From NCBI GenBank assembly GCA_902806095.1, contig CADCVF010000019.1:1-45987 (forward strand): a DNA stretch of 45,987 nt, in the 5' to 3' direction. Positions within the stretch are counted from its first letter, which is position 1; every line of letters begins with the position of its first letter. The translations under genes and the position numbers were made by a program. Shown one piece after another: positions 3,186 to 31,869 of the stretch. This stretch comes from an uncultured Rubrobacteraceae bacterium. GTDB taxonomy: Bacteria > Actinomycetota > Rubrobacteria > Rubrobacterales > Rubrobacteraceae. A model generated the notes under the pieces. That model had not been told where the DNA came from, made no database searches, and was given only the letters and a program-made list of their open reading frames with translations.

Positions 3186-3981
3186 TCAGCTGTCCCACAG
3201 GCCCACAGGCATCTCGTTGCCGCTCTCGATTCTCCCCGGTGTCATCAACGTCTCCAAGATGCGCTCGTGGGTAGCGCGGTGCTCCACCTGGTCGGGATGC
3301 GCCGAGACGGCACGCAGGGGACTTCCCGAGACAGTGTAGAGATCTTGCGCACCGGCGTAGCGCACCAACGCCTCGATGTCGCCGTCCGGGGTTAGGCGGG
3401 TAAGCAGCTCGAGCTCACGCAGGTACCAGAGCTGTCCTCGCTCCTGTAGTTCCGCATCCAGGATCGCGCCGAGGCGCAGGACCGCATCGATCGGCCCGAG
3501 TGCAGACGTTTCGTGTCCCCTCCTCACTTCCCTTCGCCACTCCTTCCTGGGCCGACAAGCCGAGCGTGTCGGCGATCAGGTCCTCGATACCGTGCGTCTT
3601 CCCATCGAGCAGGAAAGCCGCAAGGAGGGTGTCGAAGGCGGGCGTACCTGTCTCAACACCACGCTGAGCAAGCACTATGAGTCCGAGCTTGGCGTCGTGC
3701 ATCACCTTTGGTGGGCCGTCGGCGCCTAGTAGCGGACGAAGCTCCTGCAGAATCGCATCGCTGTCCGTATCCATGGAACCTAGTGGCACGTGGTAGGCAG
3801 CGCCAGGCTCGAAGCAGAGCGAAAGGCCAGCGAGGGTAGCCCCAACCACCCCTGGCCCTTCGGTCTGGACATCGAGGGCTACTTGTTGCGCGTGCTCGGA
3901 CGCCTCTAGCACGTCGCCCACCTGCGTCGAGGAGGAGAGTACCTGGCAGCGCGGTGTCCCCATATCCGGCAGTCGGTTCAT
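3186..3981 (-). pseudogene. DNA polymerase I 3'-5' exonuclease-like domain remnant, frameshifted
   Basis: Two adjacent minus-strand frames together read like the middle of bacterial Pol I. The first (from 3981) has V-A-L-D-V-Q-T-E-G, the V-M-H-D-A-K helix and F-D-T-L-L-A-A-F-L-L-D. The second (ending 3186) has D-A-V-L-R-L, a typical link towards the polymerase domain. The frame changes near 3500-3527, at a GAGGAGGGGACACG stretch. No polymerase domain and no 5' nuclease domain are present, so about 265 codons of a normally 850-900 residue protein remain. The exonuclease signature D-x-E reads D-V-Q, so the domain was probably inactive before truncation. It lies inside the A-B segment of the tRNA-fragment array. 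Confidence 0.6.
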
Positions 3982-4861: not shown

Positions 4862-5071
4862 CACTCGAGTGTGCCCATCCGCCAGATAAATAGGATCCGA
4901 CCAATTCCGCAAGTGGCCATTCGTCCAGCCTCTATGCGGGCTGCTAGAGCCTCATGTATGGCTAGCACCGACCGTAGAGGGCTTGCGAACAAGCTCGTGC
5001 CGACCGTGGCGGCTACGTTTCCCAAGGGCTTGCCCACGGGTTTTTTCTTCCCGTGTTGGTCATGACTCTCC

Positions 5072-13802: not shown

Positions 13803-14246
13803 CTGCTGGAAGAGAGTCTAGCTTTGTCTCGTAGTAAGGAGCATGCCTGGGGCATCGCACGCACGCTAGCCAGCCTCGGGAACGTGGCGTGCGAAGCAGG
13901 CGAATACACGCGGGCGTCGAGGTTGTACGAAGAGAGTCTGGAGCTTGGGGGGCGGCGGATGGGGCTCAACCATACCATCCTAATCTGCTTGGAGGGGCTG
14001 GCCCGAGTAGCGGTCGCGCAAGGGAGGATGAAACGGGCAGCGCACCTTTTTGGGACAGCCGCCGCGCTACGGGAAGATAGGGGCTGGCCCCTCCCACCGT
14101 CCAAGCGCACCGAGCACGACCGTACCGTGGCTGCGGCCCACGGGGCACTCGGGAAAGAGGCGTTTACGGCGGCGTGGACAAGGGGCCATGCTCTGCCCTT
14201 GGAGGAGGCCATCGAGGATACCTTATTGGGCAAGGGTGCAATCTGA
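13803..14246 (+). pseudogene. AfsR/LuxR-type ATPase regulator, C-terminal TPR remnant
   Basis: The frame starts in mid-protein (L-L-E-E-S-L-A-L, W-G-I-A-R-T-L-A-S-L-G-N-V-A) and continues through TPR units (A-G-E-Y-T-R-A-S-R-L-Y-E-E-S-L) to the family's typical end: A-A-H-L-F-G-T-A-A-A-L-R-E, G-K-E-A-F-T-A-A-W and L-E-E-A-I-E-D-T-L. The ATPase domain and any LuxR HTH are missing. Its left end meets the truncated surface-protein gene head to head within a few bases of 13800. Its stop lies two bases from tRNA fragment E. Both edges look like recombination breakpoints. Confidence 0.6.
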
Positions 14247-29375: not shown

Positions 29376-30513
29376 CTATGAGGATCGTCGTAGCGTAAGG
29401 AGGGTGATGTCATCCTCTTGCTCCCAGCCCTCCCCAGTGAAGGTGTAGAGCTCCCCGAGGAGTGAGTCCACCAGTGATTAGTGATTGCTCATCGCCGCGC
29501 TCGGCGATGAGCGACCGCAGCCTGGGGAAGCCGAACACTCTGCCTTTAGGGTCGTGAGCCTCCACTAACCCGTCACTGTAGAAGAGGGCTACCTCGCCAG
29601 CATCGAGTACTCTCTCCTTCTCCTCATAGCCCATCCCCGGCACTAGGCCCAGGGGCATTCCTCTCGCCCTAAGTTTCTCGGCGTCACCGTTATGGCGGCG
29701 CAGGTAGGCCATGTCATGACCCGCGTTGGCATACCTCAAGCGCCCGCTCTTAGGGTCAAGGATGCTATAGAAGCAAGTTACAAACATGTTGGGAGGGATG
29801 TCGGTGACAAGCGGGTCATTGACCCTTCCCAATACGTCCCCCGGCGAGGAAGAACCTAAGGCTTGGGTTACTGCCCTGAGCATGCTGCGGGCACTAGTCA
29901 TCACCAGCGCAGCTGGCATACCGTGGCCGGTTGCGTCCCCCACTACCAACCCTAACCTTCCGTCAGGGAGCTCCAGAAAATCGTAGAAGTCTCCTCCTAC
30001 CTCCCTGGCTGGCTGGTAGTGGTGGACGATATTCCAGCCGTCGAACCGGGGCAAGTCCTTAGGGAGCAGAGCCTGCTGGATGAGCCGCGCCGTCCTAAGC
30101 TCCTGCTCGATACTCTGGCGCATCAGGTTGAGCTGGTCGTAGGAGTCCCAGCTCTCTATCACCTTGCCCTCATGGTAGAAGCGGAAGATGCCTATGCCAT
30201 TGATCTCCGCCTTCTTGCCCGTAGGCGTGCTGCCTCTGAACTCGCCCTCGTGGGTGCCGCGCATCCTCCAGCGGGTGAGCACCTTGTCCCCCTCGGCGAT
30301 CTGGTCCTCTATGGTGGCATGAAAGTCGGGGAAAGCGGAGTGAAATTCGCCCATAAACCGCCTAGCGTCTTCGGAGCTGCGCTCGAGCACCGATCCGTCG
30401 GGCTGGTGGGCAAGGTAGCGATCGAAGATCTCGTCGGCAAGCGCCAGGTTACCCTGGTTGGTCACCTCCTCGACATAGCGCCTGAACATGTCCTTATCCC
30501 CTTCGGTAGACAC
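29376..30513 (-). pseudogene. SnoaL-like + SpoIIE (PP2C-type) phosphatase broken by a 7-bp duplication
   Basis: Residues 1-125 form a SnoaL-like/ester-cyclase fold (F-R-R-Y-V-E-E-V, D-F-H-A-T-I-E-D-Q) and the rest is a SpoIIE phosphatase of RsbU type: R-E-V-G-G-D-F-Y-D-F, V-V-G-D-A-T-G-H-G, A-N-A-G-H-D and F-Y-S-D-G-L-V-E. Near the end AGTGATT is directly repeated at 29473-29479 and 29480-29486. The extra 7 bp shift the frame, and the ORF ends early at 29410. Without it the frame runs on through G-E-G-W-E-Q-E-D-D-I-T-L-L-T-L to 29376, restoring the last metal-binding Asp. The start GTG 30513 has GGAAGGAG upstream and gives M-S-T-E. As read it is probably inactive; reversible slippage is possible. 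Confidence 0.75.
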
Positions 30514-31797: not shown

Positions 31798-31869
31798 ACC
31801 TCGGCCGGAAAGAACGAATAGACCTGGAGTGGGTTACACGGAGTGGGTTACACGATGGAGGGAGTTCTT

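Follow-up and report, generated by a model that had tools for sequence, protein, structure and literature searches.

An apparently recent 7-bp tandem duplication that probably inactivates a SnoaL-SpoIIE phosphatase gene in an uncultured Rubrobacteraceae bacterium

The window analysed here, a stretch of 45,987 nucleotides from an uncultured Rubrobacteraceae soil bacterium (contig CADCVF010000019.1 of assembly GCA_902806095.1), carries on its minus strand a gene that comprises 367 codons as assembled (29410-30513). Pfam detects two domains in its product, a SnoaL-like domain (3e-31) and, C-terminal to it, a SpoIIE-type PP2C phosphatase domain (1.8e-44). The latter match (PF07228) scores 152.5 bits (cut-off 25) and covers profile positions 1-156 of 192. 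This significant profile match places the protein among the SpoIIE-type PPM phosphatases, the family proposed in a first-pass annotation. The start of the gene is most plausibly the GTG at 30513, because an AGGAG motif is located directly upstream. At the other end, the assembled product finishes in a 22-residue out-of-frame tail (ITGGLTPRGALHLHWGGLGARG) that resembles no homologue seen.

Inside this gene, AGTGATT is present twice in exact tandem at positions 29473-29486 (AATCACT twice on the coding, minus strand), which shifts the frame by one base. The sequence AGTGATTAGTGATT occurs only at these positions, both in the window and in the entire 3.83-Mb assembly. The assembled two-copy frame runs into a stop at 29410, whereas a one-copy reading leaves the frame open as far as a TAG at 29378-29376. 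The alternative frame (29376-29472, minus strand) encodes the conserved C-terminus of the PP2C family (…GEGWEQEDDITLLTL…), and the tail of the one-copy reading, SLVDSLLGELYTFTGEGWEQEDDITLLTLRRSS, aligns without gaps with intact paralogues and homologues. The frame is therefore disrupted relative to intact homologues, and a change in repeat copy number restores it. These results bear out the initial description of the tandem repeat and of a C-terminus that is regained up to 29376 when one copy is dropped.

A perfect 7-bp repeat is by itself unremarkable; what matters is its location at the frame break. The window contains four such tandem repeats where 3.0 are expected, and a 400-kb sample made up of 20 stretches of the bacterium's own assembly contains 31 where 28 are expected. 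This sample thus shows no genome-wide excess at 7 bp, and its counts above 7 bp are small. Perfect repeats of 7 bp or more with a length of 1 mod 3, together with 10 nt to either side, take up just 0.28% of positions, so the duplication is very probably the cause of the frame break. A codon-usage screen for frame-healing repeats (unit lengths of 5-40 bp, multiples of 3 excluded) was run over approximately 446 kb. In the part of the sites that was scorable, this screen flagged five 5-bp candidates and no further frame-breaking repeat with units of at least 7 bp.

To place the metal ligands, we aligned an intact paralogue with Bacillus subtilis SpoIIE (5mqh). The DDIT motif of the paralogue lies opposite EDDMT of SpoIIE, and counting along the alignment equates its first Asp with D795, which together with D746 and D628 forms the metal ligands of SpoIIE (PMC8080068). 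In the window gene the codon that aligns with D795 occupies 29414-29412 and is overlapped by the premature stop at 29412-29410. The two-copy form retains the metal motifs VGDATGHG and YSDG in frame, and its set of metal-binding Asp residues (D628, D746, and D795 in SpoIIE) is incomplete, the counterpart of D795 being out of frame. The suggestion that the last metal-binding Asp is lost is thereby placed at a defined ligand position. An AlphaFold2 model of the assembled product was of moderate confidence overall (mean pLDDT 71.7), with values below 50 for residues 340-367. The loss of the D795-equivalent Asp, together with this model, makes it probable that the assembled product lacks phosphatase activity and has a disordered tail.

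The break looks recent, since the 33 residues past it are as conserved as the rest of the protein. Compared with 19 homologues, identity is 0.55-0.82 after the break (over at most 33 residues) and 0.57-0.71 before it, and for nearly all homologues the later value is similar to or above the earlier one. Neither a second lesion nor any loss of conservation past the break was seen against these 19 sequences. This lack of further decay is consistent with a young lesion and agrees with the very recent mutation suggested at first reading. The terminal branch of the window gene (0.29, against a median of 0.11 over 21 rows) is among the longer ones but did not receive a long-branch flag. Finer dating is precluded by the divergence of even the nearest homologues. 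The relatives found were Rubrobacteraceae genomes, mostly metagenome-assembled, in which the best full-length match to the window gene has 54-55% identity and the best partial matches have 67-72%; none was close enough to serve as a close-relative orthologue. The neighbouring genes gave only weak or scattered matches and no single-copy sister locus for comparison, and a search of a plasmid collection returned distant matches only, all below 60% identity.

Among 39 Rubrobacteraceae genomes, we examined 23 loci of at least approximately 50% identity. The C-terminal motif is reached in 21 of these, the other two being truncated where their contigs stop. Of the 21 assessable members, two have a broken frame, namely the window gene and the homologue L063 (G014 C319). 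In L063, TCAACGAGAC is present as a perfect 10-bp tandem of two copies at 4953-4972, and the gene is otherwise undecayed. Both duplications are perfect tandems that shift the frame by one base, and they are located at different positions. No homologue has a frame break at the duplication site of the window gene, nor is a repeat tract conserved there in the relatives. Loss of the C-terminal segment was likewise seen in no other assessable member. Tandem duplication is thus a believable route to inactivation in this SpoIIE family; two cases are too few to demonstrate a switch.

Directly next to the duplication, with zero gap, is a perfect inverted repeat (29487-29512) whose 11-bp arms enclose a loop of 4 nt. 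It is the longest perfect hairpin in the window, where a shuffling model predicts approximately 0.1, and 21 hairpins with arms of at least 11 bp were counted in 400 kb of the same genome. The probability that such a hairpin adjoins the duplication by chance is about a few in a thousand, judged post hoc. The hairpin was not seen in the fetched homologues. Polymerase pausing at the bases of hairpins, and slippage at these sites, has been documented (PMC4134008), and the hairpin is a plausible candidate cause of the 7-bp duplication. The duplicated unit has no flanking microhomology, so simple slippage offers no obvious mechanism. Two further ideas about origin were rejected. The hairpin is not a cause common to both duplications, as no comparable hairpin was found near the 10-bp duplication of L063. 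The footprint of a transposon target-site duplication found no support; the lengths of 7 and 10 bp would call for two different elements.

The bacterium's own genome carries six other SpoIIE-domain genes with near-complete profile matches. A paralogue on C35 adjoins two STAS genes and one kinase-like gene. The window gene has no such partner beside it; STAS and kinase genes are present on other contigs of the genome. The stress-signalling role put forward in the first-pass annotation accordingly stands as an inference from the family and gains nothing from the gene's neighbours. Short frame-broken remnants of SpoIIE domains were also observed in this genome at 1501-1740 of L008 (C46) and 1501-1683 of L010 (C39), which suggests turnover of the SpoIIE gene family.

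We consider it likely that the window gene, an accessory SnoaL-SpoIIE gene from a redundant family, has undergone a recent and ordinary loss of function by 7-bp tandem duplication. Short tandem duplications are a usual kind of insertion mutation. Replication or repair probably faltered at the base of the 11-bp hairpin and left the second copy, and the resulting frame shift would remove the C-terminal segment together with the metal-binding Asp, yielding a phosphatase that is probably inactive and ends in a disordered tail. Such a loss may be tolerated thanks to the other SpoIIE paralogues in the genome, which belong to a family that seems to experience both gain and loss of genes. The counterpoint to this reading is L063, whose break is also a tandem duplication and resembles what a recurrent switch could look like. 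The reversible on/off switch of the first-pass annotation would require that the second copy is often gained and lost, such that populations mix ON (one-copy) and OFF (two-copy) cells. The frame is restored exactly upon loss of one copy, L063 from another Rubrobacteraceae genome is in the OFF state owing to its perfect 10-bp tandem duplication, the site could be made less stable by the hairpin next to it, and Staphylococcus aureus agr is a known case of a regulator that is lost reversibly (PMC6686034). However, the tract consists of two short copies only, the genome has no excess of repeats, the different places of the two duplications argue against a conserved dedicated repeat tract, and in the S. 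aureus study one duplication isolate gave no revertants (PMC6686034). We obtained no positive evidence for such a switch and regard it as quite unlikely. In a broader version, short perfect tandem duplications, such as the 7-bp one described here and the 10-bp one in G014 C319, would time and again silence members of this Rubrobacteraceae SpoIIE family in a reversible manner. Their sites would vary and would sometimes be marked by a hairpin, and the result would resemble phase variation with no dedicated tract. This broader version is the sole unusual reading left, it rests on two cases, and we judge it improbable.

The second copy could also be an artefact of assembly or consensus, or a minority variant captured in the contig, with the real population having one copy. 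The draft assembly comprises 85 contigs and its contamination is estimated at 3.37%, but a 14-bp feature falls well inside short-read length, and frame-breaking tandem repeats are not scattered over the approximately 446 kb of assembly; we therefore find this explanation unlikely. With its SnoaL domain and the greater part of its PP2C domain still in frame, the truncated protein might work as a pseudophosphatase, for instance as a SnoaL sensor or a binding adapter like RssB, whose PPM domain has been described as C-terminally truncated and inactive (PMC12143880). Yet the tail is out-of-frame sequence with no homologue seen, the segment is lost in no other assessable family member, and the lost C-terminus is still fully conserved, which points to selection on the full form until recently and makes such a role highly improbable. 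Finally, ribosomal +1 frameshifting at the duplication could provide some full-length phosphatase, given that the shifted frame is open and only two residues would be added. No known slippery motif was recognised, however, the hairpin is upstream rather than downstream of the shift point, and the arrangement is found in no homologue, leaving frameshifting with hardly any likelihood.

The window gene shares the SpoIIE domain and the GD and SDG metal motifs with SpoIIE/RsbU-type PPM (PP2C) phosphatases such as B. subtilis SpoIIE and RsbU and Mycobacterium tuberculosis Rv1364c, and its one-copy reading also contains DDIT. It differs from these proteins in that the assembled form is missing the D795 position, the regulatory domain is SnoaL-like, and no STAS or kinase gene is adjacent. 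Natural loss-of-function alleles of S. aureus rsbU, such as the 11-bp deletion in NCTC8325, have been described in sequenced strains (PMC10135042) and similarly involve a SpoIIE-type phosphatase inactivated by a small indel. In the window gene, by contrast, the lesion is a tandem duplication near the 3′ end of a member of a multi-copy family in an uncharacterised environmental species. Reversion or mixed populations have been observed for S. aureus agr (PMC6686034) and for tandem repeats in M. tuberculosis promoters (PMC12817950). There, as here, a regulatory gene or promoter is altered by a potentially revertible change, whereas the assembly of the window shows a single, two-copy form. The PPM domain of Escherichia coli RssB is C-terminally truncated like that of the window gene (PMC12143880), but RssB possesses a receiver domain and its function is established, and the truncation described here seems recent and terminates in out-of-frame sequence. 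Should the locus record nothing beyond a recent inactivation, it represents a clear yet ordinary loss of a paralogue. Recurrence of hairpin-linked short duplications in the family would matter more, since reads from soil metagenomes would then allow a direct count of ON and OFF alleles.

Several other features were observed in the window. A perfect 14-bp tandem duplication (GGAGTGGGTTACAC, two copies) at 31826-31854 is located just upstream of the ribosome-binding site and the ATG (31870) of a gene for an HtrA-like protease (Trypsin_2 and PDZ domains). No repeat of that length is expected by chance, and the duplication may alter the 5′ leader of the protease gene. A short open reading frame at 13824-14246 contains only TPR/MalT-like repeats and could be what is left of the C-terminus of a larger regulator. 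Positions 3186-3981 encode a fragment of a DNA polymerase I-type 3′-5′ exonuclease (PF01612), with a possible continuation in another frame; this fragment, within which an 8-bp perfect tandem repeat is present at 3194-3210, looks like a gene remnant.
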